Positions 4,381 to 64,000 of a DNA stretch of 64,000 nt are shown here, piece after piece (the stretch's first letter is position 1; every line of letters starts with the position of its first letter). The stretch lies in assembly GCF_943193135.1 (NCBI RefSeq), contig NZ_CALPCZ010000003.1:62001-126000 (forward strand). Reading direction: 5' to 3'. A program made the position numbers and the translations under genes. A model generated the notes under the pieces. That model was not told the DNA's origin and ran no database searches. It worked only from the letters and a program-made list of their open reading frames with translations. The DNA comes from Odoribacter lunatus (GTDB taxonomy: Bacteria > Bacteroidota > Bacteroidia > Bacteroidales > Marinifilaceae).

Positions 4381-4427
4381 AGGACATCCCGTTGGTCTAT
4401 GCAGTATTCACAGTAAACACATTGGAT

Positions 4428-5966: not shown

Positions 5967-5980
5967 TACAATACATAAGG

Positions 5981-5988: not shown

Positions 5989-6114
5989 TACAAAATACTG
6001 TATTTAAGAGCAAAATATTCTTTAAAATAAATTTTTGTATACCAACATATTTAGCAATATTTCCCAGATTACTTTTTATGATGTTGATTTTCAATATATA
6101 GTTGTGTCTTATTG

Positions 6115-6132
6115 TCTCTTCGTAAGAGATAA
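6115..6132 (-). repeat. Inverted repeat, right end of putative invertible promoter
   Basis: TCTCTTCGTAAGAGATAA is the exact inverted copy of 5949-5966. It lies 50 bp before the start of the Cys-rich peptide gene. Confidence 0.65.
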
Positions 6133-6181
6133 TATAATGGCAAGACCTATAAAGCCGTCAGAGTAGGGAAAATAATAAATT

Positions 6182-6403
6182 ATGCTAATACCAAAAGTAG
6201 ACGATTACAAACAAATTAAAGGACACGTTAGTGATTATATGGATGTTCATATGGCTGCATGTGCATGCGGAGGTGGATGTAGCTGTCTTTGTAAACAAAT
6301 GACGGTAGTTAGTATTCAAAAAATTTATGTATGTTTAGCTTGCAGTTGTAATACCTCTGTAATGAGAGAATTATTTAAGGAAAAAATTGATATTTTAACT
6401 TGA
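6182..6403 (+). CDS. Cys-rich peptide, candidate RiPP precursor 1
   Basis: This is a 73-residue peptide. Residues 1-24 form a leader-like part (MLIPKVDDYKQIKGHVSDYM) that is shared with the peptide at 11654. From residue 27 it is Cys-rich: CACGGGCSCLC, then CLACSC around 51-56, eight Cys in total. A radical SAM/SPASM enzyme starts 68 bp downstream on the same strand. Small Cys-rich peptide plus SPASM maturase is the usual arrangement for thioether-bridged RiPPs (sactipeptides, ranthipeptides). No transporter or leader peptidase gene lies next to it. Function inferred from context and composition only. Confidence 0.65.
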   Translation: MLIPKVDDYKQIKGHVSDYMDVHMAACACGGGCSCLCKQMTVVSIQKIYVCLACSCNTSVMRELFKEKIDILT

Positions 6404-6471
6404 GTTAAATGGGGGATTTTCCTCTTTTTTGTTTTACTGCATTGATAATAATCTTATTCTTAAAATAAATA

Positions 6472-7851: not shown

Positions 7852-7913
7852 ATGTGTGTGGCTTTCTTATAAAATTCAATATCATGATACGATAAAGGAA
7901 GATTTATATAACT

Positions 7914-8300
7914 ATGTCTGTAACCAAATACATTTATTTCAATTCACGGGATGAACTTTTTAAAGTGGCTATATCGGCGATCGTGTATATAGAGGCGGAC
8001 GGGAATTATACGCGTGTTATGTTGATGAATGATCAAGCTGCCATGATAGGTATGAATTTGGGGAAAATGGAAGAATTCCTGTCAAGCGGATTTGCTAAGG
8101 AAACATCGGGTTTGGCGCGTATCGGCAAGCGTTTTATTATCAATATGAAATACATATTCAAAATTAATTTGTTGAAGCAGGAGTTGGTTTTGAGCGACCA
8201 AAAATCCTTTATCTATACTTTGAATATCTCAAAAGATGCCCTTAAAAATTTGAAAAACATACTTATACAATCAGTAACTGTAAATAAGCAACAATTATGA
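7914..8300 (+). CDS. Stand-alone LytTR DNA-binding regulator
   Basis: This 128-residue protein is essentially one LytTR domain: DELFKVAISAIVYIEADGNY at the start, LARIGKRFIINMKYIFKI in the middle. There is no receiver domain, so it is not a classical response regulator. It may be controlled by phosphorylation by the neighbouring Ser/Thr kinase or by binding the FHA protein. It overlaps the FHA gene by ATGA, so the two are made together. Likely role: local transcription control of the island. Confidence 0.85.
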   Translation: MSVTKYIYFNSRDELFKVAISAIVYIEADGNYTRVMLMNDQAAMIGMNLGKMEEFLSSGFAKETSGLARIGKRFIINMKYIFKINLLKQELVLSDQKSFIYTLNISKDALKNLKNILIQSVTVNKQQL

Positions 8301-9001
8301 TAGAGATTATTATCGGACGGGAGGCAGGTGTGGAGAAGTCTCGTTTGGCTTTGATGGCAGGAGACAAGACTGCTTATTGTGGAAATCCCGGCAGCGTACC
8401 TCGCAGCGTGAGCCGGAAGCATTGTCGTTTGGTGATTCATGAGGATTCAACTCTTTCCGTGAGTGATTTGACGGACAATAATTTTATGTATGTCAACGGT
8501 TCGGATTGTAAGAGTCGGGGACATATAACCGTGAATGATAAGGTGGAATTGGGACCAGACCGTTATTGTCTGGAACTTTCGACTATCGTTAAGGCATTTG
8601 CTGCGCAACAGACTTATCATATTGCCTCTTTGAAAGAGGTGTATGATAATTACAATAAAACCAAGTTGGATAATCAGATCCGGCAGGGAAAACTTAATGC
8701 TTTGAGTGCTTTGCCGGGAGTGCTTTCCATGTCGTCTATGGTTTTGGCGATTTGCTTGAACAATGAAGGAATCAGAATTGTTATGATTGTATTGGCAGCG
8801 GTATTTGCCGTCGGTGTTGTGATTGTGCGAATGAAAAATTCAAGCAATAATCCACTGAAAATGAAGCAATTGGAGGATGGTTATCACGATAGATACGTTT
8901 GCCCCAATCCGTCTTGCCGACATTTTTTGGGATCAATGCAATACAAAGATTTGTTGAAGAACGGGGCATGTCCTTACTGCAAGGCGAAGTATGTAGAATA
9001 A
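8297..9001 (+). CDS. FHA-domain membrane protein with zinc ribbon
   Basis: This is a 234-residue protein. Residues 1-95 are an FHA domain that recognises phosphothreonine: the GREAG start, SVSRKHCRLVI with the conserved S-R-x-H core, and NNFMYVNG. Two hydrophobic stretches (near 138-175) make it a membrane protein. The C-terminus has a four-Cys zinc ribbon (CPNPSC, then CPYC). It sits 16 bp before the kinase gene, which fits a docking partner for the phosphorylated kinase or its substrates. Confidence 0.85.
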   Translation: MIEIIIGREAGVEKSRLALMAGDKTAYCGNPGSVPRSVSRKHCRLVIHEDSTLSVSDLTDNNFMYVNGSDCKSRGHITVNDKVELGPDRYCLELSTIVKAFAAQQTYHIASLKEVYDNYNKTKLDNQIRQGKLNALSALPGVLSMSSMVLAICLNNEGIRIVMIVLAAVFAVGVVIVRMKNSSNNPLKMKQLEDGYHDRYVCPNPSCRHFLGSMQYKDLLKNGACPYCKAKYVE

Positions 9002-9017
9002 TTAAATAACAAAAAAT

Positions 9018-11549
9018 ATGGATTCAAAAGCGCTTCATGAGGGGTATTTGTTGAAGAACAGCGAATACCGGATTATCTCTTCGCTGGGTCAGGGGGGATT
9101 CGGCATCACTTATTTGGCGGAACAGCTTTCCTTGTCGCGAAAAGTGGCGATCAAAGAGTTTTTCATGAAAGAAAACTGTAACCGCGATGAAAACACGTCG
9201 GAGGTTTCCGTTCCTTCTGTCGGGAGCCGGGAATTGGTGGCAAAATTCAGACAGAAGTTTTTGCGGGAGGCAAGGATGATAGCCAAACTGGATAATCTGC
9301 ATATCGTTAAGATTCACGATGTATTTGAAGAGAACGGGACAGCTTATTATGTGATGGAGTATTTGGACGGAGGTTCTCTTGTAGATGAGGTGAAACATCG
9401 AGGTCCGATGTCCGAGCAGAAAGCCCTCGGCTATATCCGTCAGATAGCTTCTGCGTTGGATTATCTGCATGGGATGAATGTTCTTCATTTTGACATCAAA
9501 CCTGCGAACATTTTAATCGGGAATGCTGGTCAGGCGATGCTGATAGATTTCGGCATCTCGAAGCATTATGATGCGGGAGGGAGTCAGACGAGTTCCACGC
9601 CCGTCGGCATCAGCAATGGTTATGCCCCGTTGGAACAGTATCAGCAGGGAGAAATCAGTACTTTTACACCGGCGACGGACATCTACGCCTTGGGGGCGAC
9701 GTTGTATTATCTGTTATTGGGACAGACACCTCCGAGTGCATCGGAGGTAAATGAGGAAGGGGGTGTTGCATTGCCTGCCCATTTGTCCGCCTCTGTTCGC
9801 AAGGCGATAGAGAAGGCGATGGCGCCTCGTCGCAGAGACCGTCCTCAGAGCGTTCAGGAGTTTTTGTCATTGCTGGATGGCGGTCGTACTGTGGCATCTG
9901 AAGTTCCGGAAGCGGACGAAGAGACGAAGGTCAACACCGGATTCAAGCGGGATTCGTCATCAGTTCCAGTTTCTTCTTCTCCGAAGCGTAATTATCATAT
10001 AGGCTTGTGGATAGCTTTGTGTTCATTTATCGGTATTGGAGTCTTGTCGTTTTTGCTTTTAATGCAGGGAAAAACATCAGCGCCGATACCTCCTGCAGTT
10101 CCAACGGGGACATTGAAAATCAGCAGTATCCCTTCTGGAGCCGTATTGTGGTTGGACGGTAAAAATATGGAAAAATCAACGCCCTTGACAGTCGAGAATC
10201 TTTCGTCAGGCGTTCATAAGGTTGTATTGAAACTGGATGGTTATGAAGACGGCGTAAAAGAGGTGGCCGTTTCTTCTTCAGCACACATGGACTGTAATAT
10301 AACTCTGAAGAAAAAAGTATCTTCCGTTGAACCTCCGGTTGTTCAAAGCGGCACGTTGAAAGTCAGTAGTACTCCTTCGGGTGCATCGATTTGGATTGAC
10401 GGCAAGAACACGGGTAAAACGACGCCTAAAGTGTTGGAGGATTTGTCTGCCGGAAAGCATGCGGTTGTTCTGAGACTTTCCGGTTATCAGGAGTTTAGCA
10501 AGTCCGTTAGTGTTATTTCTTCCCAGCGTAGTGATTGCCATGTTGATTTGGTCAAGGAACCCGAGGTCGTACGAACCGGCACGTTGAAAGTCAGCAGCAC
10601 TCCTTCGGGAGCATCGATTTGGATTGACGGCAAGAATACGGGTAAGACGACGCCGGAAATTTTGGAGGATATAGCAGTAGGCAGTCATAAGATCGTATTG
10701 AAGCATGACGGTTATCAGGACGTCGCAATGCAAGTCAGTGTCTCTTCCGGCAAGCGTACGGAGTGCACCGTCACCCTTGACGAAGTAACCGAGCCTGTCA
10801 AACCTTCACCCCCTCAGAACTACACGGAGACGGCTTTGGGTGTCAATATGAAGATGGTCTATGTTGCTAGCGGCAGTTTTATGATGGGAGCAACTTCGGA
10901 GCAGGGGAGCAATGCTTTTGACTATGAAAAACCTGTTCATCAAGTGGTTCTTTCCGGTTACTACATCGGTGCTTACGAGGTGACTCAGGGACAGTGGGAG
11001 AAGGTGATGGGCACATCCGTTACCCAACAGCGAGATAAGGCAAATTCAAGTTGGCCTCTTTATGGTGTCGGTTCTGATTATCCGATGTATTATGTTAGTT
11101 GGGATGAGGCTCAGGCATTTTGTCGTGAGCTGAGCCGCCGGACGGGCAAGCGCTATGTTTTGCCAACTGAGGCTCAGTGGGAGTATGCCGCCCGTGGAGG
11201 TAACAGGAATGAGGGGACCAAATACAGCGGAAGCGATGCTGTCGATGTCGTAGTTTGGTATGATTCCAACAGTGGTTCTTCTACTCATCCGGTAGGTACG
11301 AAGCGTCCGAACGCCTTGGGTTTGTATGATATGAGTGGCAATGTTTGGGAATGGTGTGCGGACTGGTACGGTTCTTATCCGAATATGTATCAGGCGAATC
11401 CTACAGGTCCTTCTTCCGGCTCTCGCCGCGTGTATCGCGGCGGTAGTTGGTTTAACAGTGCGGCGGGCAGCCGGGTGTCGAATCGGAACGACGGTACTCC
11501 GAGCCGCCGTGACGGCCATCGCGGCTTCCGCGTGGTGTGTCTTCCTTAG
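9018..11549 (+). CDS. Ser/Thr kinase-TM-PEGA-C-lectin receptor 1
   Basis: This is an 843-residue protein. Kinase domain (~15-285): glycine loop GQGGFGITYLAE, VAIKEFF Lys, catalytic HFDIKPANIL, LIDFGISK. The catalytic loop is HFD rather than HRD, a non-RD kinase. One TM helix lies at ~328-350. Three PEGA repeats follow (~364-435, 445-515, 521-590), each with G-T-L-K-x-S-S and G-Y. The C-terminus (~604-843) is an FGE-sulfatase/C-type-lectin fold starting at GVNMKMVYV. The paired FGE catalytic Cys after RGGSW are missing, so it is probably a ligand-binding rather than an enzymatic domain. The kinase part differs from receptors 2 and 3 although the PEGA and lectin parts are nearly the same, suggesting module exchange. 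The last 35 residues are hypervariable. Confidence 0.9.
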   Translation: MDSKALHEGYLLKNSEYRIISSLGQGGFGITYLAEQLSLSRKVAIKEFFMKENCNRDENTSEVSVPSVGSRELVAKFRQKFLREARMIAKLDNLHIVKIHDVFEENGTAYYVMEYLDGGSLVDEVKHRGPMSEQKALGYIRQIASALDYLHGMNVLHFDIKPANILIGNAGQAMLIDFGISKHYDAGGSQTSSTPVGISNGYAPLEQYQQGEISTFTPATDIYALGATLYYLLLGQTPPSASEVNEEGGVALPAHLSASVRKAIEKAMAPRRRDRPQSVQEFLSLLDGGRTVASEVPEADEETKVNTGFKRDSSSVPVSSSPKRNYHIGLWIALCSFIGIGVLSFLLLMQGKTSAPIPPAVPTGTLKISSIPSGAVLWLDGKNMEKSTPLTVENLSSGVHKVVLKLDGYEDGVKEVAVSSSAHMDCNITLKKKVSSVEPPVVQSGTLKVSSTPSGASIWIDGKNTGKTTPKVLEDLSAGKHAVVLRLSGYQEFSKSVSVISSQRSDCHVDLVKEPEVVRTGTLKVSSTPSGASIWIDGKNTGKTTPEILEDIAVGSHKIVLKHDGYQDVAMQVSVSSGKRTECTVTLDEVTEPVKPSPPQNYTETALGVNMKMVYVASGSFMMGATSEQGSNAFDYEKPVHQVVLSGYYIGAYEVTQGQWEKVMGTSVTQQRDKANSSWPLYGVGSDYPMYYVSWDEAQAFCRELSRRTGKRYVLPTEAQWEYAARGGNRNEGTKYSGSDAVDVVVWYDSNSGSSTHPVGTKRPNALGLYDMSGNVWEWCADWYGSYPNMYQANPTGPSSGSRRVYRGGSWFNSAAGSRVSNRNDGTPSRRDGHRGFRVVCLP
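11451..11547 (+). other. DGR-like variable region, receptor 1
   Basis: Codons at 11451-11522 differ sharply from the two sister genes, mostly at codon positions 1 and 2. The following 25 bp (11523-11547) are identical in all three genes down to wobble bases, as expected of a 3' homing anchor. Confidence 0.6.
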
Positions 11550-11653
11550 TTTCTGATATTCATTTGTTATAGCCTATAGATTTCTAAGATATAAAAATAA
11601 TAAGTGGAGATGCCGAAAATCCAGTAAAGAGTAGGTCTAAAATTAATATATTT

Positions 11654-11836
11654 ATGTTAATACCAAATTTTAATGATTACAAACAGATTCAAGGGAATAT
11701 TGTAGATTATTTAGAAATTAATAAATCTCGTTTTAAAATTGTATGTGGGGGGTGTAGTTGTGTATTTCCTCCGCTTGGTATAAAATGCTTTTTAATTTTC
11801 AATAATAATAATTTGCTAATAGACAGAAGTTATTAG
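11654..11836 (+). CDS. Cys-rich peptide, candidate RiPP precursor 2
   Basis: This is a 60-residue peptide whose start MLIPNFNDYKQIQGNIVDYL matches the peptide at 6182 in about 11 of the first 20 positions. The following part has CGGCSC and one more Cys, four in all, against eight in the first peptide. No second maturase gene follows, so it would have to share the enzyme at 6472, or it is a decaying copy. The flanks are A+T-rich like the first cassette. It interrupts the run of kinase-island genes after receptor 1. Confidence 0.55.
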   Translation: MLIPNFNDYKQIQGNIVDYLEINKSRFKIVCGGCSCVFPPLGIKCFLIFNNNNLLIDRSY

Positions 11837-23468: not shown

Positions 23469-24476
23469 TCAAATTGAACGGAATCGTGCCTGCAACTCCT
23501 CTATTCTCGAGATTAGTTGCTCGAATGTAAAATGTTCACCGTATATCATGGACTCCTGCATGGCCTTGTAGTCATCTTGCCATACTTTCAGCACCTCCTT
23601 GGGAGGCAATAGGACGATACGTTTGCGTATGTCGGGCGTATAGTCCACATCCTTGATAGAAGTGAACAGTTCTCTATGGTGGTGAATGGCGCTCCATAAT
23701 TCGTTATCGCTGACGGCTTTTTGCGCAAACGGTTCGTCCATCATTTTCATCAGATCGTAAAGATGGCGCGATTTGCGGTTTGCATTGCGGCAACCGTTGG
23801 TGGTAAACAACTCGTGAAGCAGGAATGACTTTTCCAAAAAGGTTTTTCCCGGTACGGACGAGATGATATCCACATCCGCAACAGTAGTATCTATCGAAGA
23901 ATTTTCACTTACCAAAGACTTTACTTGTGCCTTGGCGGTAGGCTCGAACAACGACCTTGCGCCAATTTCCAGCAATACTTCGGATTGTAGATAATCTGGA
24001 CCGGTATTTTCAAAGACCGATTCGTAAGCTATATGCACCTTGCGTGGTTCTGGATAAGTCGCATCCCCTTCGCCGTCCGGATCTGGCGTTATTGTGCAAT
24101 GGTTGGATAGCCCTTTTTCATTGACGACTCCCTGCAAATCCGCAGCAAAGACCTCCTTGACAAACAGCGATGATGCCTTGCGCAGTTTCTTCAGTTGTTT
24201 TTTGGTCAGGTCGCCTTCCAAACCGAAAACACTTCGGTCAATGGCAAGGTCGATGTCTTCTGAGAACCTGGAAATCAAATTCCACACTTTGCTCAAGGAT
24301 GACCCGCCTTTGAATACTAGCTTGTCTGCATACGGCAATGTATAAACCGCTTGAAGAATCCCTGTCACCCAAATATCCTTTTCTATCGCCTTGGGGTCAT
24401 CTATACCCAGGCGCAGGCTGACTTGTTCGTAGATGGTGCGGCGCATATCCGCTGGAAGTTGCAAGAATTTATTCAT
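23469..24476 (-). CDS. abiEii: AbiEii-type nucleotidyltransferase toxin
   Basis: This is a 335-residue protein. The nucleotidyltransferase motif KGGSSLSKVWNLISRFSEDI, followed by DLAID (~57-81), matches the G-G-[TS]-x-L-S-K and R-x-S-E-D-I-D-L core of AbiEii toxins. These transfer nucleotides and halt growth, giving abortive phage infection or plasmid stabilisation. It overlaps the upstream antitoxin-like gene by 8 bp, the usual antitoxin-first order. Position at the right end of the element suits a maintenance or anti-phage role. Confidence 0.9.
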   Translation of the reverse strand: MNKFLQLPADMRRTIYEQVSLRLGIDDPKAIEKDIWVTGILQAVYTLPYADKLVFKGGSSLSKVWNLISRFSEDIDLAIDRSVFGLEGDLTKKQLKKLRKASSLFVKEVFAADLQGVVNEKGLSNHCTITPDPDGEGDATYPEPRKVHIAYESVFENTGPDYLQSEVLLEIGARSLFEPTAKAQVKSLVSENSSIDTTVADVDIISSVPGKTFLEKSFLLHELFTTNGCRNANRKSRHLYDLMKMMDEPFAQKAVSDNELWSAIHHHRELFTSIKDVDYTPDIRKRIVLLPPKEVLKVWQDDYKAMQESMIYGEHFTFEQLISRIEELQARFRSI

Positions 24477-25080
24477 ATGCTTTCAATATTATGGAACGAA
24501 TCCAGCCCGGCACAAGTTTCAAGTCCTCGGCAATCTGCTCTTTGGGTTCATTGGACAATAGTTGCTTGATACGATTGAGCTGTTCCTCGCTCACGTTGCC
24601 TTGCCCCAGCCTTTGGAGGGCAAATGTAATCAGCATAATAAGTTCCGATTTGAAATTGAGCCGTTTGGGTACGACACGCTTGAAGAGAATACCTCTGCCG
24701 TTATATATCTTTATTCTTCGGGATGTGCCATCGGTGAAATAGACCGCATTCATCGGCACTTGTGTGGAAAGTCCGAGTTTGTTCAATGCGGCATCACCGG
24801 TTGGTACGATACGACATTTGTCTCTTTGGGCAATGGCCTGTGCGACATCATCCACGCCGGGGTACACGATTCCGAAGCCGAATTCAGTGTCGATTTTCGG
24901 TTTGCAATAGATGCCTCTTGCAAGCCGGATTATTTTTCCGGACAGTGTGATACGCTCAAAAACCTTGTTGATGGTCTTTTGCTCTCCCATATCCGCAAAA
25001 TTACTTGCAAATAGTATAGTACCGTGCTTTTTTCTATTTATGGTAGTGAGTATCTTATTATCAATGCTTTGTTTTGTCAT
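24469..25080 (-). CDS. AbiEi/DUF6088-like antitoxin
   Basis: This is a 203-residue protein. The N-terminal ~75 residues (ASNFADMGEQKTINKVFERI, ending LARGIYCKPK) are a winged-helix of the AbiEi_4/DUF6088 kind. The following part (GDAALNKLGLSTQVPMNAVY, then FTDGTSRRI) is the typical antitoxin body. It should neutralise the downstream toxin and repress its own promoter. A perfect 11-bp inverted repeat lies 16 bp before its start. Confidence 0.82.
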   Translation of the reverse strand: MTKQSIDNKILTTINRKKHGTILFASNFADMGEQKTINKVFERITLSGKIIRLARGIYCKPKIDTEFGFGIVYPGVDDVAQAIAQRDKCRIVPTGDAALNKLGLSTQVPMNAVYFTDGTSRRIKIYNGRGILFKRVVPKRLNFKSELIMLITFALQRLGQGNVSEEQLNRIKQLLSNEPKEQIAEDLKLVPGWIRSIILKAYE

Positions 25081-53946: not shown

Positions 53947-55563
53947 ATGAAGGGATGGTGCTGGCTGCTGTGTCTGCTTTGCGGTATTCAGATGGGACGG
54001 GGACAGGCTCTGATTCCTTGTCCTGTGGATGTAAAGGCGCTTCCGCAGGAGGAATATGTGTTCGGCGACAAGGTCGTGATAGCTTTGTTGTCCGAAGGGT
54101 TGGAGAATGAGGCGGAGGAATTGCGGCAGGTGGTGAAGGACCGGACAGGGCGGGAGCCGGAGATTGTGCGTAGCGGGAAAATGCCGAATGGGGCGGTTTG
54201 CCTGAAACTGGATGCCGGGCTGTCGGAGACGGAGAGATATGAACTGACGGTAAACTCTTCAAATGTCTGTATTGCCGGTAAGACGGCGGCAGGTGTTTTT
54301 TACGGTATTCAGACATTCGACCAGCTTTTGGCGGAGAACGGAGGAAATACGGTGTGTACGGCTGTCGGGGGCGTGCGGATTACGGATAGTCCCCGATTCG
54401 GTTACCGGGCGTTGATGCTTGACCCTGCCCGGCATTTTATCCCGCTGGAGGAGGTGAAACGTTTTATCGATTTGATGGCGCGTTTTAAATTCAATGTACT
54501 GCAACTTCATCTTACCGATGACCAGGGATGGCGGATAGAAATCAAGGCTTATCCCGATTTGACGGGGAAGGGGGCGTACCGCAATCCCCAGGGGGGCATG
54601 AACGGTCCCGATAACGGATATTATACGCAGGAGGAGTTGAAGGAACTGGTGGCGTATGCCGCCCGCAAGCATGTGGAAATTGTGCCGGAGCTGGATATTC
54701 CCGGACATACGGCTGCTGCCATTCATGCCTATCCGCATCTGGGATGTTTGCGGGGCGATTCTGTACCGTTGGTGTTGGGAAAATCGACCGACCGCATGCT
54801 TTGTGCGGCAGAGGAAGGAACGTATGAGTTTTACGACAAGGTCATAGGGGAAGTGAGCCGTTTGTTTCCTTCCCGGAGAATCCACTTGGGAGGCGATGAA
54901 GCCGTGATGGAGAAGAATTGGGGCGTGTGTCCCCGCTGCCGTGCGCTGATGGAACGGCAAGGTTTCCGGAAGACAGATGAGCTGATGGGCTATTTCTTTG
55001 AGAGGATAGAAAAGACGGTGAAGCGGAACGACAAAGAGATGCTGTTGTGGTGCGAGCTGGACAATATCCGCATGCCTGCCGAAAGGTTTCTTTTCGATTA
55101 TCCGAAAGACTGTACACTGTTTACGTGGCGAATGGGTCTGACGCCCAGAACGATAGAACTGACCGCGCGTGCCGGAATCAAACTGATAGCTTCGCCCGGG
55201 GAATATTGTTATTTCGATTATCCTCAATGGAAGGGCGATTTGCCGGAATTTAACAACTGGGGCATGCCTCTTTTGCCGTTGCGGCAGGCGTATGCCTTTG
55301 ACCCCGGTTATGGTCTGCCGCCGGAGGAACAGGGGCACATTATCGGCGTGGCGGGGTTGTTATGGGGAGAAGCGATGGCCGATATGAACCGGATTACGTA
55401 TATGGCTTTTCCGAGGGCGCTGGCTTTGGCGGAAGCCGGGTGGAGCCGGATGGAAAACCGGGACTGGGAGTCTTTTAAGAACCGGATGTATCCGCTGTTG
55501 GCGGATTTAATGCGAAAAGGCGTCAGTTTCCGGGTACCGTTTGAGGTTTCCGGGTCACATTAA
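53947..55563 (+). CDS. GH20 beta-N-acetylhexosaminidase
   Basis: This is a 538-residue protein with a short signal peptide (WCWLLCLLCGIQMGRGQA). GH20b domain at ~20-140, then the catalytic barrel beginning GYRALMLDPARHFIPLEEVK. The catalytic Asp-Glu are in IHLGGDEAVMEKNW (~316). TAGIQTFDQ-like and WGEAMAD segments complete the substrate pocket. It is the classical type, unlike its neighbour upstream, so the pair likely handles different linkages. The 3' end overlaps the convergent patatin gene by 41 bp. Confidence 0.95.
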   Translation: MKGWCWLLCLLCGIQMGRGQALIPCPVDVKALPQEEYVFGDKVVIALLSEGLENEAEELRQVVKDRTGREPEIVRSGKMPNGAVCLKLDAGLSETERYELTVNSSNVCIAGKTAAGVFYGIQTFDQLLAENGGNTVCTAVGGVRITDSPRFGYRALMLDPARHFIPLEEVKRFIDLMARFKFNVLQLHLTDDQGWRIEIKAYPDLTGKGAYRNPQGGMNGPDNGYYTQEELKELVAYAARKHVEIVPELDIPGHTAAAIHAYPHLGCLRGDSVPLVLGKSTDRMLCAAEEGTYEFYDKVIGEVSRLFPSRRIHLGGDEAVMEKNWGVCPRCRALMERQGFRKTDELMGYFFERIEKTVKRNDKEMLLWCELDNIRMPAERFLFDYPKDCTLFTWRMGLTPRTIELTARAGIKLIASPGEYCYFDYPQWKGDLPEFNNWGMPLLPLRQAYAFDPGYGLPPEEQGHIIGVAGLLWGEAMADMNRITYMAFPRALALAEAGWSRMENRDWESFKNRMYPLLADLMRKGVSFRVPFEVSGSH

Positions 55564-56308
55564 ACTCTTTTAGCGTTTCTTTAGCGGCTAGGTATCCCTG
55601 TTCGTAAATCTCTTTTGCCCGGTTGAGGTCAAATATACTGAAACGAATCATATCGTCAGGGGCGATGACGAGGTCGGCCAGATTCTTATCTATTTTACTG
55701 TTGGAAGCGAGGGAGAGGTGCAAGGAACGTTCCGCAATATGAAGCATGTTGGCAATGTTCCGTTTTTTGTCAATGGAATTGATTTCCACCGCGATGACTT
55801 TTTCGCATAAATTTCGGATGGGGCGTACGGGCAGGTTCATGAATACTCCGCCGTCTACGTAATTGATTCCGTCGATTTTTGTGGGGGTGAAAAGAATAGG
55901 AATCGAGCAGGAGGCGACGACGCAGGGAATGAGTTCGCCTTTGTTGAAATGCACAGATGTGGCATTTTTCATATCGGTAGCCGTAACAACCAAAGGAATT
56001 TTCAGGTCGTCGAAGGTTTGTATTTGCAAAAAGTCTTTCAGATGATTTCTCATTTTTGACATGGACATCAACCCGCTTTTGGACAGGGTAAAACGGGCAA
56101 AGTTCATCATTTTTTTATGTGTGAAGAAATGAAGGCATTCTTCCGGATGCCTTTCGGTGGCGAGCATCGCTCCGGCGATGGCTCCCGCACTGGTGCCCGA
56201 AATAATATCGGGTTTTATTCCGTATTCCTTCATCGCCTGCATTACGCCGAAATGGGCGAGCCCTCGTGCACCTCCTCCGCTGAGTGCTAAACCTAACTTG
56301 TATTTCAT
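55523..56308 (-). CDS. Patatin-like phospholipase
   Basis: This is a 261-residue protein. The oxyanion-hole Gly-rich loop is LSGGGARGLAHFGV (~10), the nucleophile lies in GTSAGAIAGA (~40), and the Asp of the dyad in YVDGGVFMNLP (~152). No signal peptide, so it is likely a cytoplasmic or membrane-associated lipase. A minus-strand promoter (56528-56557) inside the putative invertible segment could drive it. Confidence 0.93.
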   Translation of the reverse strand: MKYKLGLALSGGGARGLAHFGVMQAMKEYGIKPDIISGTSAGAIAGAMLATERHPEECLHFFTHKKMMNFARFTLSKSGLMSMSKMRNHLKDFLQIQTFDDLKIPLVVTATDMKNATSVHFNKGELIPCVVASCSIPILFTPTKIDGINYVDGGVFMNLPVRPIRNLCEKVIAVEINSIDKKRNIANMLHIAERSLHLSLASNSKIDKNLADLVIAPDDMIRFSIFDLNRAKEIYEQGYLAAKETLKEFNVTRKPQTVPGN

Positions 56309-56489
56309 AACTACCTTTTTTTGAAAAGTAGTATTTGTACGGATAACAGGTTTATAAAGTAAAGAGCCATCCGGATAAATATCCTTAATTTATAATAAAT
56401 AAATGGAGACCCCGGATAGAGGAGCGGCAGCCACCTGTGAAAATGGTTAATATTGCTTATAACTGGTTGTTTTTAAGTGGAATACATGA

Positions 56490-56512
56490 CCAAAAAAAGG
56501 GTAGGTTTAAAT
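56490..56512 (+). repeat. Left inverted repeat of second putative invertible segment
   Basis: This 23-bp word pairs with 56610-56631 with only a small mismatch (GG against C): CCAAAAAAA and a perfect 12-bp part GTAGGTTTAAAT. Confidence 0.55.
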
Positions 56513-56527
56513 AAGCGGAGAGTTTCG

Positions 56528-56557
56528 CAAAATTAACAATTTTTTAAACGTGTCAAA
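56528..56557 (-). promoter_or_regulatory. Promoter inside second invertible segment
   Basis: Minus-strand TTTG (56554-56557), 18 bp, then TAATTTTG (56528-56535), a good Bacteroidetes promoter. As given it points to the patatin gene; inverted, it would point to the HU-like and LRR genes. Confidence 0.6.
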
Positions 56558-56609
56558 GTCTTCATACTCAAAACGATAATTTTTTTCCCTGTTTCGCAAA
56601 ACTCCGTCC

Positions 56610-56631
56610 ATTTAAACCTACGTTTTTTTGG
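56610..56631 (-). repeat. Right inverted repeat of second putative invertible segment
   Basis: Inverted partner of 56490-56512, about 90 bp before the HU-like gene. No gene lies in 56309-56720. Confidence 0.55.
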
Positions 56632-56720
56632 GCGGAGTTTCTCGAAAACCCCGTATTTCCAACGGAAAGGAGGTCAATAAAAGGAAGTACGTTTATTTAT
56701 TCATCATTAAAAAAAAGATT

Positions 56721-57173
56721 ATGACATTACTTTACAAGAAAATCCAGCGTGTGAATCCGTTAAAGAAAGACGAACCCCGTAAATGGTATCCGGTGGTAAA
56801 AAGTTTGGGTACGTTGGGCGAAAAAGAGGTTGCCAAGCGTATTTCCGAGGAAACGACCTTAAACCCGAAAGAGGCGGAGATGGCATTGGCACAATTGGAG
56901 AAAGTACTGATTAGCGGATTGCTGGACGGCTATACGGTGAAAATCGGAGACTGGGGCACGTTTCAGGTGACGGTGAATGCAACCGGTGCGGATACGGAAA
57001 AGGAAGCCACCGCTTCAAAAATTACGAAAGTAAATATCCGCTTCACCGCCGGACAATCTTTACGGGAGGCCGCGCAGAAAGCCACATTCCGTTCGGCAGC
57101 AGATTTTGTTGGCACTAACGGAAATGCTAACGGAGGAACGGAGAATATCGGAGGGGAAACCGGGGAAGGGTAA
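56721..57173 (+). CDS. HU/IHF-like DNA-binding protein
   Basis: The protein has 150 residues from ATG 56721 (MTLLYKKIQRVNPLKK); the frame is open upstream but that part has no family similarity. The N-terminal ~115 residues fit the Bacteroidales HU-like fold: KRISEETTLNPKEAEMALAQ, then DGYTVKIGDWGTFQVTV and IRFTAGQSLREA. The tail is Gly/Asn-rich. Such proteins bend or coat DNA and are often found next to surface-glycan or surface-protein genes, as here. Confidence 0.87.
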   Translation: MTLLYKKIQRVNPLKKDEPRKWYPVVKSLGTLGEKEVAKRISEETTLNPKEAEMALAQLEKVLISGLLDGYTVKIGDWGTFQVTVNATGADTEKEATASKITKVNIRFTAGQSLREAAQKATFRSAADFVGTNGNANGGTENIGGETGEG

Positions 57174-57184
57174 CTTTTTCTCCA

Positions 57185-57246
57185 TATCTTGCCCAAGATA
57201 GGTTGCCTATCTTGGGCATCTTCTTGTCTGTATCTTGCCCAAGATA
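57185..57246. repeat. Tandem palindromes between HU-like and LRR genes
   Basis: TATCTTGCCCAAGATA occurs at 57185-57200 and again at 57231-57246. Between them lies a 13-bp perfect stem (57190-57202 with 57206-57218, loop TTG). Could be an attenuator, terminator or operator cluster. Confidence 0.6.
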
Positions 57247-57357
57247 CAAGGAGTATTTCGGGCAAGGTGTCCGGAAGAGGATAATCGAAACAGATACTGA
57301 ATTATAAACGAGACAATAAACCGAATAAAATATCAATAGATTAAAAAACAGAAAAAG

Positions 57358-60300
57358 ATGAAAAGAGTATTGTATGGGATGCTGTGCTTGTTGCTGGTGG
57401 CAGGGTGCAGCAAGGATAAAATAGAGGAAGACACCCCTGTATTGCCGGATGATGTTACATTAGAGCTTTCCGCAACGGATCTCGTTTTCGAGTCCGGTGG
57501 CGGAAAACAGGAGTTCACCATTACAAGCAATGCGGAGTGGACGATTACCAACGAGAGCGAATGGTGTACGACGGATGTTACTTCCGGCAAGGGAGACAAG
57601 ACCGTCACCGTAACGGTGGCAACTTCCGCCGAGACGGAAGACCGCAACCTGAATCTCTCCGTTAGGGCAGGAGAGCAGACGAGTGTACTCACTGTGACCG
57701 AGAAACACGGCAACGCCTTGATATTGGCAAAGGACAAATTCGACCTTCCGCAGGACGGCGGGGACGTGTCGATTGATGTTAAAAGCGATGTGGAAGAGGT
57801 CATCATTCCCGCTGAATATCAGTCGTGGATTACTCTGGCGCCCGACACGAGAGCGGCACAGATTAAGTGCTACGTATTCATTATTCTGGAGCAGAAGGGT
57901 AAAGATGGAAGATGGGGGTACATCATCTTCAAGAGCGGTGAGCGGAGCGATACGGTGTTTATCTTCCAGGCACCCGAAGAGCGTTTGATATTGTCGGAAG
58001 ACACGTGCCGCGTATCGGGCAAGGGCGGAGATTTGACGGTGGAACTGAAGTCGAACATCGTCTACGACGTGACCATCCCAGCAGCCGCTGCGTCGTGGGT
58101 TAACCAGGTAACGGAGCGTTCTTTCCGGAGCGACCGTTTGAAACTGCACATCGAGGCCGACACGACTGTCGACCGGAACACGGAGATAGTGATTAAAAAC
58201 CGGTATGGCGATGAGACCGACACGCTGTACATCCGGCAGACCTCCACGCAATCGCCCAAAGAAGACATCACCTCGGCATTCGACCCAGCCTTTGCGGGTT
58301 TGTTGCAGCGGTTGGGTTACATCCCCGATTCTACCCGGATATTAAGAGAAAACATACAACATATCGACTCGCTCGTTGTCTATTGGAAAGCTTTGACCTC
58401 CTTAAAAGGGATTGAATACTTTGAATCGTTGAGAAAGTTGTATTGCGGTTCTAATCGGCTCACATCGTTGGATGTAAGTAATAATACGGCATTAACCCAC
58501 TTGAATTGCAGTTCTAATCAACTCACGTCTTTGGATGTAAGTAAAAATACGGCATTGACCCAGTTGTATTGTAGCTCTAATCAACTCACTTCTTTGAATA
58601 TAAGTAATTGTACTGCATTAGCCATATTATATTGTCAGACAAATCAACTTACGTCTTTGGATGTAAGCAAGAACACGGCACTGGAACAACTGTACTGTCA
58701 AGAAAATCAACTTAAATCGTTGGATATTAGTAATAATATGGTATTGACCAATTTGTATTGTGGTAATAATCAACTCACGTTATTAGATGTAAGTAAGAAT
58801 ACAGCATTGGTTCAATTGGGTTGTAACGGTAATCAATTGACTTCTTTGGATGTAAACAAGAATACTGCATTGGGCAGCTTGTTTTGTTATTCTAATCAAC
58901 TTACGTCTTTGGATATAAGCCGGGACACGGCATTGACAATACTGTATTGTTATAATAATCCTGGCGACGGGAAAGCTATCTTCCCTGTGACTGCTTGGTT
59001 TTATGACAATGATATTCCGTCTGGTTTTGGGTATGTAAAAAATTGGAGCTACGGAGACAACATCATCACCATCAGGTTTCAAACGGAGGAAGACATAAAA
59101 GACATTACGGCGGACTTCGACCCCGAATTTGCCAAAGTGTTGCAGGAAAATGGCTATATTCCCGATGCCGCCCATATTACCTTGGGGGATGTCAAAGGCA
59201 TAAAGGCGTTATATATATATGCAACAGAAGCGGATTATCAAGCCGGTAAGGGACTGACCTCTTTAAAAGGAATCGAGTATTTTGAATCCTTAACCAATCT
59301 GTATTGTGAAAATAATCAACTTACTTCGTTGGATTTGAGTCAGAATACGGCATTAACCGATGTGAGTTGTTATGACAATCAGCTCACCTCTTTGAATGTC
59401 ACGAAAAACACCGCACTGACATCCTTAGCTTGCGGTGGCAACCGATTGACTGCATTGGACGTGAGTAAAAACACGGCCTTGACCTACTTGTCGTGCGGTT
59501 CTAATCAGCTTACCTCTTTGGATGTAAGCCGGAACACGGCCTTGGTTGAATTACGTTGTTTAGAGAATCAATTGACTTCTTTAAATGTGGGCATAAACAC
59601 GGTGCTAACCAAGTTGTGGTGTCACTTCAATAAACTTGCCTCGTTGGATGTGAGCGGATGCACGGCGTTGGATTACTTGCGTTGCAACGATAATCCCGGT
59701 GATGAAAAAAATATCTTTTCATTAACGGTTTGGAATGACTATAAGAATACAATTCGTATCGCTATAGACGATTATAATGGAACGGTAATGAATAGAGGGG
59801 AAGCATGGGAGTATGAAGGTAAAAAAGTCTGGTTCCGACTTTTAAATGAAAAATACAGTAAAGACATCACGGCAGACTTCGACCCCGGTTTCGCTAAAGC
59901 ATTACAAGAAAAAGGCTATATCCCTGATGCTTCCCATATCATTAGGGGGGAAACAAAACTACTTACTTTAAGTTATTTAGATTTTAGTAGAACAGAAGCG
60001 GATTATCAAGCCGGCAAAGGCTTGACCTCCCTGGCAGGAATCGAGTATTTTGAATCTTTGACCTATTTAAGTTGCGCCTATAATCAACTCACGTCTTTGG
60101 ATGTAACTAAAAATACGGGCTTGGGCAGATTGTCTTGTGATTATAATCAACTCACGTCTTTGGATGTGAGCAAGAATACGGTATTGACTAATTTGTCTTG
60201 TGGTTATAATCAACTCACGTCTTTGGATATAGGCAAAAATACGGCATTGGTCAATTTATATTGCCCTTTTAATCAAATTACATCTTTGGATGTAAGTGGT

Positions 60301-60939
60301 TGTACTGCATTAACAAGCTTGTATTGCGTTTATAATCAATTTACCTCTTTGAATTTAAGTGGTTGTACAACATTGACTGAATTAGGGTGCGGTGGCAATC
60401 AACTTTCATTTTTGGATATAAGCGGTTGTACGGCGTTGACTGAGTTGAATTTTAATAGTTTTCAATTTACGTCTTTGAATGCAAGCGGTTGTACAGCATT
60501 AACTAAATTAGACTGTTCTAACAATCAACTAACCTTTTTGGATGTAAGTAATTGCACTGCGCTGACCACGTTGACTTGTTATTGGAATAGACTTACATCT
60601 TTAGATGTGAGCGGTTGTACAGCATTGACCACATTGGGATGTAGTCATAATCAACTCATATCGTTAGATGTAAGTGATTGCACTGTGTTAACTACACTGA
60701 GGTGCAGTTCTAATCAACTTACATCCTTGGATGTAACCAAGAATGTAGCATTGATTACGTTGGAGTGCAGTGGTAATCCTGGTGACGGGGAGAGCTTTTT
60801 TCCGGTGACGGCGTGGTTTGATAACAATACAGTTCCGGGAAATATGAAATTTACTTACGAAGAAGACAGTAGTTTTGACGGTAAAAGTTGGACGTATGAC
60901 GGCAAAACCATTACCATAGATTTCCGTAAGGCGGAGTGA
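57358..60939 (+). CDS. BACON/LRR surface lipoprotein
   Basis: This is a 1193-residue protein. Lipobox LLLVAGCSKD gives lipidation at Cys-19 or so. Two or three BACON-like beta domains fill ~30-300 (SGGGKQEFTITSNAEWTITN). Then come long runs of 21-residue leucine-rich repeats, consensus LTSLDVSKNTALTxLxCxxN, in three blocks. Each block is preceded by DITADFDPEFAKVLQENGYI or a variant with YIP next. The blocks look like internal duplications. Such proteins sit on the outer membrane facing outward and bind proteins or glycans. It is downstream of a candidate phase switch. Confidence 0.9.
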   Translation: MKRVLYGMLCLLLVAGCSKDKIEEDTPVLPDDVTLELSATDLVFESGGGKQEFTITSNAEWTITNESEWCTTDVTSGKGDKTVTVTVATSAETEDRNLNLSVRAGEQTSVLTVTEKHGNALILAKDKFDLPQDGGDVSIDVKSDVEEVIIPAEYQSWITLAPDTRAAQIKCYVFIILEQKGKDGRWGYIIFKSGERSDTVFIFQAPEERLILSEDTCRVSGKGGDLTVELKSNIVYDVTIPAAAASWVNQVTERSFRSDRLKLHIEADTTVDRNTEIVIKNRYGDETDTLYIRQTSTQSPKEDITSAFDPAFAGLLQRLGYIPDSTRILRENIQHIDSLVVYWKALTSLKGIEYFESLRKLYCGSNRLTSLDVSNNTALTHLNCSSNQLTSLDVSKNTALTQLYCSSNQLTSLNISNCTALAILYCQTNQLTSLDVSKNTALEQLYCQENQLKSLDISNNMVLTNLYCGNNQLTLLDVSKNTALVQLGCNGNQLTSLDVNKNTALGSLFCYSNQLTSLDISRDTALTILYCYNNPGDGKAIFPVTAWFYDNDIPSGFGYVKNWSYGDNIITIRFQTEEDIKDITADFDPEFAKVLQENGYIPDAAHITLGDVKGIKALYIYATEADYQAGKGLTSLKGIEYFESLTNLYCENNQLTSLDLSQNTALTDVSCYDNQLTSLNVTKNTALTSLACGGNRLTALDVSKNTALTYLSCGSNQLTSLDVSRNTALVELRCLENQLTSLNVGINTVLTKLWCHFNKLASLDVSGCTALDYLRCNDNPGDEKNIFSLTVWNDYKNTIRIAIDDYNGTVMNRGEAWEYEGKKVWFRLLNEKYSKDITADFDPGFAKALQEKGYIPDASHIIRGETKLLTLSYLDFSRTEADYQAGKGLTSLAGIEYFESLTYLSCAYNQLTSLDVTKNTGLGRLSCDYNQLTSLDVSKNTVLTNLSCGYNQLTSLDIGKNTALVNLYCPFNQITSLDVSGCTALTSLYCVYNQFTSLNLSGCTTLTELGCGGNQLSFLDISGCTALTELNFNSFQFTSLNASGCTALTKLDCSNNQLTFLDVSNCTALTTLTCYWNRLTSLDVSGCTALTTLGCSHNQLISLDVSDCTVLTTLRCSSNQLTSLDVTKNVALITLECSGNPGDGESFFPVTAWFDNNTVPGNMKFTYEEDSSFDGKSWTYDGKTITIDFRKAE

Positions 60940-60975
60940 AAAAGAAAGTAGAAAAGGTTAAAAAGTAGAAAAGTT

Positions 60976-61005
60976 GAAAGGGAGAGTTTTTCTCCCTTTC
61001 TTTTT
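60976..61005 (+). terminator. Terminator after LRR gene
   Basis: A 10-bp stem GAAAGGGAGA/TCTCCCTTTC (60976-60985, 60991-61000) with TTTTTT after it. Confidence 0.8.
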
Positions 61006-61056
61006 TATCGTGAAGATAACTTATCATGGGAAAGACGTAATTTCATGAATTATAGC

Positions 61057-61064
61057 TACCTTTG
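61057..61064 (+). promoter_or_regulatory. Promoter of KilA-N gene
   Basis: TACCTTTG -7 box, 26 bp before ATG 61090. The -33 box is weak. Confidence 0.5.
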
Positions 61065-61089
61065 TAATAAAACCAAAGCATAAACCACC

Positions 61090-61353
61090 ATGGCAAAGAT
61101 TACGGTTCAAAATACAGACATTAGTGTTGTCAAGCACAACGATGAAGATTATATCAGCCTTACAGATATGGCACGAAGTCAACTGCAAGAGCATATTATC
61201 TTCCGTTGGCTTAGTCTTAAAAGTACTATCGAGTATCTTGGTAAATGGGAAATGCTATATAATCCTGATTTTAATTGTACCGAATTCGGTATAATTCATC
61301 AGATGAGTGTATTGGAAAGCAGTGATAATGGAAACCGAAAATTATTAAGATGA
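61090..61353 (+). pseudogene. Truncated KilA-N domain protein
   Basis: This is an 87-residue frame beginning MAKITVQNTDISVVKHNDED with the KilA-N pattern YISLTDMARSQLQEHIIFRW. KilA-N proteins of this type are usually two to three times longer. Here the frame stops after DNGNRKLLR and a terminator follows, with no continuation in another frame. Probably a deletion remnant, though it has an intact promoter and terminator and could still make a short protein. Confidence 0.65.
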
Positions 61354-61377
61354 TTGTAATTCGTCCGGCAATCATTG

Positions 61378-61405
61378 AAAAAAGGGGGAATCTTCCCCCT
61401 TTTTT
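61378..61405 (+). terminator. Terminator after KilA-N fragment
   Basis: A perfect 13-bp stem AAAAAAGGGGGAA with its inverted copy, running into T residues. Confidence 0.8.
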
Positions 61406-61419
61406 CTTAATTGGATTTG

Positions 61420-61479
61420 TTATCGGATTTCAGCACCCAGTTGGTGTTGGTAGTTGCCGATGAGTTTGTTCATGATTTT
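61420..61479 (-). repeat. Displaced 60-bp copy of the pheT 3' end
   Basis: 60 bp matching 62947-63006 at 57 positions, including the pheT stop codon and its last 19 codons. It is in direct orientation, 1.5 kb from the true gene end. Confidence 0.85.
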
Positions 61480-61562
61480 CATCTTCGTTAAAGTTGTAGA
61501 TTTGGTTTTGTTGTATACTTTTACGAACTTTGTCGAAAGTATCAATTATTAATTTATCATCA

Positions 61563-62468
61563 ATGAACAATATAGTTAGCATACCCAATGTTTGTAGAGA
61601 TGAGAGGATTGGGAGTGCTTTCAATCATTTGTTCCGTTTGATACATCAAGTAGAATGTATCGATGATGATAATGTTGTTTGGGATTTTAGTGAATGTTCA
61701 TTTTTTCATCCATTTTTCTTATTCCCGCTTGCTTTATATAAAGATACTTGTGAAAAGAATGTGATATTCAAAAATATGTCATCTTACCTTCAGGAATATT
61801 CCAAATTGATATATTTTGAAGATTTGTTGCATATACGTAAAGATACTTGCATAGAAGATATATTGAATGGATATATGAATAAGACCTATATACCTATATG
61901 TAAGTTTGATTTATGTATTACGAATATAGATGGTTTGCAATCTTGTATACAAAAGATAATAGAATCTCAGTGTAATGCTGATAAAAGAATAACGACTCCA
62001 TTGTCATATTTTCTTGGAGAATTGATATGTAATATAAGCCAACATTCGGATAGTGTTCATGGCTATATATACTCACAATACATACATCAGGAAAAGTGTA
62101 TTGATATGTGTATTGCAGATTCTGGTATTACTATTTTAGGTAGTTATGTGAAAACCAGGAAGTATCTAAATGAAATAGGGGATGACGATGCCATTGCTAT
62201 TAAAAAGGCTAATGAAGGATATTCAACAAAAGATTTACCAAATAGCGAAAGCAGAGGATATGGTATATCTTCTACCAAAAAGATGCTTGTGGATGGATTA
62301 GGAGGCGCTTTCTTTATGTTGTCCGGCGGAGGTTTTCATCGTCATTCAGACTCAAAAAGTGATTATATAAAATTGCCTCCTTCTATAAATTGGAATGGCA
62401 CGATTATATTAATGAGAATACCTATTGAAGTCCCAGTTGATTTCAGTTATGAAAAATATGTAGGATAA
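61563..62468 (+). CDS. STAS-like/GHKL ATPase protein
   Basis: The protein has 301 residues from ATG 61563. The N-terminal part (DDNVVWDFSECSFFHPFFLF) looks like a STAS-like fold. The C-terminal part is a GHKL-type ATPase of the histidine kinase/anti-sigma-factor kind: N box FLGELICNISQHSD (~153), G1 box CIADSGITI (~189) and G2 box ESRGYGISSTKKML (~231). No phospho-accepting His domain is seen. Paired with a STAS-like protein 6 bp downstream, so likely a partner-switching or regulatory module. The A+T-rich DNA and flanking pheT repeats suggest recent arrival. Confidence 0.82.
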   Translation: MNNIVSIPNVCRDERIGSAFNHLFRLIHQVECIDDDNVVWDFSECSFFHPFFLFPLALYKDTCEKNVIFKNMSSYLQEYSKLIYFEDLLHIRKDTCIEDILNGYMNKTYIPICKFDLCITNIDGLQSCIQKIIESQCNADKRITTPLSYFLGELICNISQHSDSVHGYIYSQYIHQEKCIDMCIADSGITILGSYVKTRKYLNEIGDDDAIAIKKANEGYSTKDLPNSESRGYGISSTKKMLVDGLGGAFFMLSGGGFHRHSDSKSDYIKLPPSINWNGTIILMRIPIEVPVDFSYEKYVG

Positions 62469-62473
62469 TTAAA

Positions 62474-62833
62474 ATGGGAATTATGGAAAGCAATGTAATA
62501 AAAATATCTTCATTGATTAGTAGCGATGTTCGTTCCCGTTCTAATGCAGATATAGTAAGGAACGCTATGATGAGAATGTCTGATAAGGCAATACTTGATT
62601 TTTCTGGAGTATCTTTCGTTTCAAGGTCTTTTTCTGACGAGTTGTGTTCTGTTGTTGAACATTTTCATAATCTGACGATAGTGATGATAAATATGTCTGA
62701 TGTTGTTCGGAATATGATAGAAATAGTAAAAAACGGGAGAAAGAATAAAAGAGTTCGTATAAATGACGAATCTGTAATAAAAGAATTTGATAATATTGAT
62801 AGTCTTCTGAAATTTTTAAATAGTGAGGCTTAA
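62474..62833 (+). CDS. STAS-like DUF4325 protein
   Basis: The protein has 119 residues (or 116 from ATG 62483). The hallmark AILDFSGVSFVSRSFSDELC (~37-56) is typical of DUF4325 STAS-like proteins. It is regularly found with GHKL ATPases and probably binds the one encoded just upstream. Biological role unknown; a small defence or stress module is possible. Confidence 0.82.
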   Translation: MGIMESNVIKISSLISSDVRSRSNADIVRNAMMRMSDKAILDFSGVSFVSRSFSDELCSVVEHFHNLTIVMINMSDVVRNMIEIVKNGRKNKRVRINDESVIKEFDNIDSLLKFLNSEA

Positions 62834-62889
62834 TCCTTGCTATTTTGCTATCTAAGGTTACATAGTTGTGGGACAACAGAGAATTTATA

Positions 62890-62927
62890 AATATCAAAGG
62901 GCACCGATTTCGGTGCCCTTTGATATT
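62890..62927. terminator. Bidirectional terminator, cassette and pheT
   Basis: A perfect 18-bp stem with a 2-nt loop (62890-62907 with 62910-62927) between convergent genes. Confidence 0.85.
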
Positions 62928-62946
62928 ATAGAAATAATGGTTTAAC

Positions 62947-63006
62947 TTATCGGATTTCAGCCCCCAATTGGTGTTGGTAGCTGCCGATGAGTTTGTTCAT
63001 GATTTT
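62947..63006 (-). repeat. 60-bp pheT 3' end, functional copy
   Basis: Partner of 61420-61479, this copy in frame with pheT. The two enclose 1,467 bp holding the ATPase and STAS-like genes. Confidence 0.85.
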
Positions 63007-64000
63007 GTCGATTTGCTTGTCCGTCAGGGTTTTTTCGTCGTCCTGTAGGGTGAAGCTGACAGCGTAGGATTTTTTGCCGGTGCCCAGCTTTTCCCCTTCG
63101 TACACGTCGAAAAGGGTCACGGATTTCAACAGTGTCTTTTCCGTTCTCAAAGCGAGTTCTTTCACTTCCTTGAAAGTGACTTTTTTATCCAGCAGCAGGG
63201 CCAGATCCCGTTTTACGGAAGGATATCTGGGCAGCGGGGTGAAAGTCGTCGTATGGTTCTTGAGGGCTTTCAGCAGGTTTTCCCAAGAGAAATCGGCATA
63301 ATAGACTTCCTGGTCGATGTCGAAGTTTTTCAGCAGTTTCCGGCTGACCGTTCCGACGGTGAGCAGGTGTTTGCCGTTCAGGGTGTAATTCAGTCCTTCC
63401 CGCAATATGTCCTGGGTGTTTTCCTCGATATTCAGCGCATCAGTTTTGAATCCTAGCCGGGAGAGTACCAGTTCGCCGCAGGCTTTCAAGGTAAAGAAAT
63501 CGCTGCGGGCTTCTTTCGTGTTCCAGGAAGCCGCGGTTTTGTTCCCCGTGAGGAAGAGTGCCAAGCGGTTTTCTTCCCGGTACTGTTTCAGGTGGTTTTC
63601 TCCGTCTTTTTTGTTGAAGGTATAGGATTTACCGAATTCGTATAATTTTAAACTGTTGTTTTTCCGGTTGATGTTATAAGCGATGGTCTCCAGTCCGCCG
63701 AACAGGAGACTCTGGCGCATGGCGTTGAGGTCGGAGCTGAGCGGGTTGTAGAGCATGACGGTGTTTTCCGGCTTGTAGGTTTCCAGTCCCTCGAAATAGG
63801 ACGCCTTGGTCAGTGAGTTGTTCATGATTTCGTTGAATCCGTTGCCGGTCAGCAGGTCGGAAATCATGTCCTTCAGCCGGTAATCGTCCGGTTTTTCCGA
63901 ATAGCTCAAGGTCGAATTGACTTTGGAGGGCACCTCGATGTTGTTAAACCCATAGATGCGCAGAATGTCTTCGATGACATCGGCTTCGCGGCGTACGTCC
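62947..64000 (-). CDS. pheT: Phenylalanine-tRNA ligase beta subunit (partial)
   Basis: The C-terminal ~350 residues are visible; the frame is open to the right edge, so the GTG at 63933 is not the start. The first visible part (DVIEDILRIYGFNNIEVPSK) is the B5 domain end, and the C-terminal FDX-ACB domain (PRYPSVKRDLALLLDK, LFDVYEGEKLGTGKKSYAVS) is complete. The last residues KLIGSYQHQLGAEIR come from the 60-bp repeat. Confidence 0.97.
   Translation of the reverse strand, partial: DVRREADVIEDILRIYGFNNIEVPSKVNSTLSYSEKPDDYRLKDMISDLLTGNGFNEIMNNSLTKASYFEGLETYKPENTVMLYNPLSSDLNAMRQSLLFGGLETIAYNINRKNNSLKLYEFGKSYTFNKKDGENHLKQYREENRLALFLTGNKTAASWNTKEARSDFFTLKACGELVLSRLGFKTDALNIEENTQDILREGLNYTLNGKHLLTVGTVSRKLLKNFDIDQEVYYADFSWENLLKALKNHTTTFTPLPRYPSVKRDLALLLDKKVTFKEVKELALRTEKTLLKSVTLFDVYEGEKLGTGKKSYAVSFTLQDDEKTLTDKQIDKIMNKLIGSYQHQLGAEIR

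Follow-up and report, generated by a model that had tools for sequence, protein, structure and literature searches.

The window analyzed here is a stretch of 64,000 nucleotides from Odoribacter lunatus (G000:C3). At its end lies the 3′ part of pheT, the essential gene for the beta subunit of phenylalanyl-tRNA synthetase, which extends past the window and is open over 837 codons in the whole genome. The end of this gene is found a second time on the same strand, and the two copies enclose a short unit with two genes. The features of the locus are listed below by coordinates and strand.

55523-56308 (minus): patatin-like gene, the ancestral 3′ neighbor of pheT, which it directly adjoins in the congeners G001 and G002
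56309-61419 (plus): second accessory stretch (HU-like gene, BACON/LRR lipoprotein, KilA-N fragment), absent between pheT and patatin in the congeners
61090-61353 (plus): KilA-N gene fragment, 87 aa, matching approximately the first 81 of the 281 positions of PDC-S22, a candidate defence family
61384-61399 (minus): terminator-like hairpin behind the distal pheT end, from folding
61420-61479 (minus): distal repeat copy, an orphan pheT end
61480-62946 (plus): inserted unit between the repeats, 1,467 bp, delimited by the congeners and by homology to the phage contig L222
61502-61562 (plus): leader and putative promoter region of the gene pair, common to L222 (blastn)
61563-62468 (plus): kinase-like gene, 301 aa, ATG at 61563, with an N-terminal STAS-like and a C-terminal GHKL (SpoIIAB-like) domain
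62474-62833 (plus): STAS (DUF4325-like) gene, 119 aa, from Pfam, alignment and AF2
62890-62927 (no strand assigned): perfect 18-bp inverted repeat, a hairpin/terminator between the pair and pheT, from folding
62947-63006 (minus): proximal repeat copy, the functional last 19 codons and stop of pheT
62947-63999 (minus): pheT, 3′ part (Pfam tRNA_synthFbeta, FDX-ACB, B5)

The two copies of the pheT end align over 60 bp without gaps, are in direct orientation and are spaced by 1,527 bp from start to start. They are identical at 57 of 60 positions, and of the three mismatches two are synonymous and none falls within the first 25 bp from the gene side. One edge of the repeat coincides exactly with the pheT stop codon and the similarity breaks off sharply at both sides. 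The match has an E of ∼4.6e-18 when compared with the opposite flank and the 2.63-Mb genome holds just two copies of the pheT end and no third, so the repeat cannot be attributed to chance. Behind the distal copy lies a separate hairpin (61384-61399) that the preliminary description had not mentioned; a hairpin here would be expected if this copy is the original pheT end, and it is probably the original pheT terminator. A search of the locus against Rfam gave no match.

The first of the two enclosed genes encodes a protein that AF2 models with a pLDDT of 91.4. We read the N-terminal alpha/beta region of this model as STAS-like. The top Foldseek matches, to the C-terminal GHKL domain, are SpoIIAB structures (1th8, 1l0o, 1tid and 1til) in complex with SpoIIAA or a sigma factor. 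The N-box, G1 and G2 residues E153, N157, D186, G188, G232 and G234 are invariant across 38 sequences and, judged by these six residues, the GHKL ATP-binding motifs are intact. The second protein (pLDDT 90.9) is modeled as a small STAS-type domain; its Pfam match to DUF4325/STAS has an E of 7.8e-4, which is under the curated cut-off. Its Ser52, which lies in an [ST]RS motif, is ≥90% conserved in 31 sequences and is a putative phospho-acceptor. Against PDB profiles the sole match at E < 0.1 was Escherichia VapS (9z7o), a weak one with an E of 0.021. PADLOC and NCBIfam returned nothing useful for the pair. The hairpin between the pair and pheT is predicted to be very stable (−30.8 kcal/mol, z −8.5).

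The preliminary description of this locus had reported the direct repeat ∼1.5 kb away, with nothing but a GHKL gene, a DUF4325 gene and a terminator enclosed and no integrase among them. Our measurements and the annotation of the enclosed DNA bear this out. Neither the DNA between the repeats nor the ∼10 kb of the window next to pheT contains an integrase, and the nearest tyrosine recombinase match (756-1976) is 60 kb away. It follows a tRNA-Lys at the other end of the window, where 443-1976 forms the start of a tRNA-targeting island. No direct repeats are common to this end and the pheT region, which indicates that the island is unrelated to the pheT repeat. Elsewhere in the window, at 23469-25080, two adjoining minus-strand genes resemble an AbiE-type toxin-antitoxin system, judging by their translations.

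A comparison of related pheT flanks had been proposed as a check for empty sites. In both G001 and G002 pheT, a terminator-like sequence and the patatin gene are directly consecutive, and the site is thus empty in these congeners. Together with the repeat, this supports the earlier proposal of an insertion at the pheT 3′ end that duplicated the gene end. With only ∼80% identity in PheT, the congeners are too distant to show the exact junction.

In the window, the patatin gene lies 6.6 kb from pheT, and beyond the distal copy there is a second accessory stretch of ∼5 kb that the preliminary description had passed over. Its 56628-60939 part holds an HU-like gene (HU-HIG) followed by a gene for a 1,193-aa BACON/LRR lipoprotein with ∼16 LRR stretches. 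The bracketing pheT ends enclose the kinase–STAS unit alone and not this stretch. Since 56309-61419 is also extra relative to the congeners, the pheT site has taken up DNA more than once, and the KilA-N fragment is probably a relic of an earlier insertion there.

Relatives of the pair and the repeats around them

Scans of genomes and viral contigs with the single kinase sequence detected nothing, and an alignment-based profile was needed to find relatives. The profile search yielded 80 loci from named genomes and a further 12 from viral contigs, and the kinase–STAS loci come mostly from metagenome assemblies. Kinase matches are patchy, being present in 9 of 97 near relatives (some of these matches are weak) and in 15 of 393 genomes of the order. 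A same-strand gene close behind the pair is missing in 61 of 85 loci, and no third gene recurs among the relatives. At the unrelated loci L124, L151 and L146, genes for AAA_14/DUF4143-type ATPases adjoin the pair (Pfam-confirmed for L146 only).

The closest relative, which is 76% identical, is in the phage contig L222. By blastn its DNA homology with the window runs from 61502 to 62843, that is, over the leader and both genes, and on the side of the distal pheT copy it stops no more than 22 bp short of that copy. The pair is also present in the Bacteroides phage BF1-TP2.

The type of scar seen at pheT is found with other genes at at least five further loci. The 3′ end is duplicated for carB in L087 (353 bp), an acetyltransferase gene in L105 (117 bp) and ispE in L146 (34 bp). 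In L092 it is the 5′ end of a glycosyltransferase gene, coding sequence and leader, that is duplicated over ∼206 bp, and in L133 an XRE gene-end repeat surrounds a larger segment. The 3′-end repeats finish at the stop codon or no more than 9 bp after it. No tRNA genes were detected as targets near these gene-end cases. Among the relatives as a whole, many copies are 97–100% identical, some sites are intergenic and several inserted units hold the pair alone. The repeats of the Paludibacteraceae group lie in intergenic DNA, some of them consist partly of shared promoter-like sequence, and they are therefore weaker evidence.

When all loci were compared with themselves, 32 direct repeat pairs were far enough apart to enclose the gene pair and 22 of them did so, vs. 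∼4 expected for a random position. The excess is seen in both subgroups (13/18 with 3.4 expected, 9/14 with 0.5 expected). Counted by locus, the pair is bracketed by direct repeats in 23 of 73 and by inverted repeats in 5 of 73, and the corresponding figure for control gene pairs is 3 of 81. A repeat above the threshold is lacking in ∼73% of the relatives.

Two additional repeats were noticed in these genomes. The genome of L087 contains, next to a HEPN-like gene, another 146 bp of the carB end (L217:8442-8587; G446:C24:11441-11586) at 84–86% identity, as though a second small cassette had taken a carB end to a different place. In L097, the STAS gene 3′ end and its terminator are present once more at 239-395, with 93% identity. 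This copy is found 5.7 kb upstream of the intact pair, beyond umuDC-like genes, and looks like a trace of repeated insertion and loss.

Origin of the gene end and route of insertion

What has happened at pheT is an insertion with a long duplication of the target end, in which the target has stayed intact and the unit contains no recombinase. The preliminary description had further suggested that a copy of the gene end came in with the cassette. The relatives L087 and L092 argue for this. In L087, 12 of the 16 coding mismatches between the copies are at third positions, and in the coding copies of six loci 25 of 38 mismatches are synonymous and 13 nonsynonymous (23% synonymous expected, p 1.7e-8). 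The excess stems mainly from L087 and L092; the mismatches in the XRE repeat of L133 have no clear synonymous bias. Because of this bias we conclude that the copies in L087 and L092 evolved as working gene ends, as would be expected of ends from different strains, and gene ends from sister-lineage donors are supported at these two loci by the pattern of substitutions. A truncated copy decaying in place would not be expected to leave such a pattern. The carB relatives that we compared are at most 85% identical and thus too distant for dating the L087 repeat.

L105 shows another donor. Here the empty site was found in the relative G482, whose target gene is 97% identical, and the insert amounts to 1,408 bp plus the duplication, the right copy of which runs on into the ancestral downstream DNA. 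Both copies carry two alleles that G482 lacks, which indicates that the donor of the duplicated end belonged to the same lineage. This origin and that from a sister lineage, as in L087 and L092, can both be explained if the unit arrives already joined to a gene end and recombines with the end present in the recipient. At pheT itself, just three mismatches are too few to tell a donor-derived end from a duplication of the resident one.

We lean, with some reservation, toward the reading that a two-gene unit with its own leader and terminator inserted behind pheT by homology-anchored, recombinase-free recombination and left the 60-bp duplication. DNA carrying a gene end together with the pair would recombine by homology with the gene end of the recipient. 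The incoming DNA could be a circle that integrates in the Campbell manner, or the second junction could be illegitimate; events in which one end is joined through homology and the other illegitimately are known from transformation and conjugation (PMC3240628). The recipient pheT would then read through the incoming end and stay intact, and the original end with its terminator would remain as the distal copy. The unit would need no recombinase of its own, and the pair seems to move as a small unit without one, probably by this homology-anchored route.

Alternatively, the unit could be a relic or satellite of a site-specific element that carries a replacement gene end and whose integrase, which has been lost or acts in trans, has the pheT 3′ end as its attachment site; only the terminal cargo of the element would be left. 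Some relatives do travel with integrases, so that a trimmed island, as the preliminary description had suggested, is still conceivable. In L129 a tRNA-Val island that encodes a tyrosine recombinase and has perfect repeats of 97 bp carries the pair at its far end, and in L097 a recombinase and the pair lie between 41-bp perfect repeats at the 3′ end of a coding gene. L076 has the pair beside an integrase and next to a tRNA-3′-like fragment, in which ARAGORN found no intact tRNA, and in L223 and L224 the pair adjoins a phage integrase. The 25 identical gene-side base pairs at pheT would also fit a core sequence. Against this, the targets vary among the relatives, the repeats reach 353 bp and many units consist of the pair only, including the L105 insert that is missing from a 97%-identical relative, and at pheT there is the lack of a nearby integrase. 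The idea of pheT as an insertion hotspot did not hold up: a second copy of the own pheT end within 9 kb was found in 0 of 20 family members, a degenerate pheT-end pattern was not found in viral contigs, and no phage or integrase carrying a pheT end was found. A pheT-specific island is thus not supported, and related cassettes use other, unrelated genes and share no attachment site. On balance, we regard the site-specific origin as unlikely, though as an explanation to be taken seriously.

We give less credence to a transposition-like insertion in which a long target duplication of variable length was made de novo and the copies diverged later. The varied targets, some of them intergenic, the range of repeat lengths and the many nearly identical copies would all be accounted for, and such a class has been described for restriction-modification genes in the passages of PMC3874152 and PMC3031569 discussed below. 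However, the unit has no transposase, no terminal inverted repeats and no conserved ends beyond the leader and the STAS stop, and the synonymous bias in L087 and L092 indicates that both copies were working gene ends and neither was dead. A plain local duplication of the pheT end around unrelated resident genes, without any mobility, would suit a short repeat with two genes in between but is very improbable, as the congeners are without the genes, the pair is patchy within the order and its relatives are repeatedly bracketed by repeats.

Beyond pheT, we tentatively suggest that toxin-less kinase–STAS switches could be small selfish or defence units that copy the coding end or the promoter of a neighboring gene, so that the target keeps working, and that spread by recombinase-free, homology-anchored recombination as restriction-modification genes do; we hold this general picture to be possible rather than probable. 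Small accessory genes without a recombinase are common. With its gene-end scars, a clear empty site in one case and insertions at many separate places, the family of the pair can be tracked and allows donor-borne ends to be distinguished from de novo duplication.

Predicted function and known systems

The proteins are best read as a kinase–STAS pair of the phage type that is related to VapK–VapS and lacks VapC. VapK and CapK are both STAS-GHKL kinases (PMC13373217). CapK is activated by single-stranded DNA and phosphorylates a conserved Ser of CapS, which frees the promoter, and VapK has been proposed to act likewise on VapS, thereby freeing VapC (PMC13373217). By analogy, the pair is likely a switch in which the kinase probably phosphorylates the STAS protein at the conserved Ser, perhaps upon DNA damage or phage infection. 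Kinase–STAS pairs have so far been known as regulators of toxin and immune operons, and here such a pair circulates in phages and chromosomes as a free two-gene unit.

The VapKSC system (VapK kinase, VapS STAS antitoxin, VapC toxin) has the same order, in which a STAS-GHKL kinase precedes a STAS protein that consists of a single domain and has a conserved Ser (PMC13373217), but the locus described here has no gene for VapC or another PIN protein, and the two genes are followed by the hairpin and pheT. CapK–CapS is likewise a kinase–STAS pair with an anti-sigma-kinase-like fold (PMC13373217); in contrast to it, our kinase has no HTH and the STAS protein no wHTH domain, and pheT instead of an immune operon lies behind the pair. 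With SpoIIAB–SpoIIAA and RsbW–RsbV the pair shares the GHKL fold and the STAS partner. It differs from them in the additional N-terminal STAS-like domain of the kinase, in its mobility and in that no cognate sigma factor was seen.

Among mobile DNA, the archaeal phage psiM100 has a GHKL gene (33% over 140 aa) and a DUF4325 gene in its inserted fragment IFa, which is missing from the sister phage psiM2. The fragment (in L234, psiM100 3417-11812) also holds a third gene. We rejected the 125-bp repeats of psiM100 as a target duplication, as they are in tandem on one side only. The minimal mobile elements of Neisseria, which include a pheS/pheT locus, are also whole-gene cassettes beside pheT that move by homologous recombination (PMC3082526). 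They are swapped between two conserved genes, whereas our cassette is located behind pheT and is accompanied by a duplicate of the pheT end.

The closest parallel for the insertion itself may be that of restriction-modification genes, for which long target duplications of variable length are known (Kobayashi group; passages of PMC3874152 and PMC3031569, citing Nobusato 2000 and Furuta 2010). As described in these passages, they are small, recombinase-free units of patchy distribution with long (∼100 bp), variable direct target duplications. The direct duplications found here vary likewise (60 bp at pheT, 30–353 bp in relatives), and an empty site is seen for L105 and, through congeners at only ∼80% PheT identity, for pheT. 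The cargo is different, as it consists of a kinase–STAS pair and includes no nuclease or methylase. In contrast to the restriction-modification insertions, the gene-end repeats finish at the stop codon and some show synonymous divergence, which points to a gene end from a donor.
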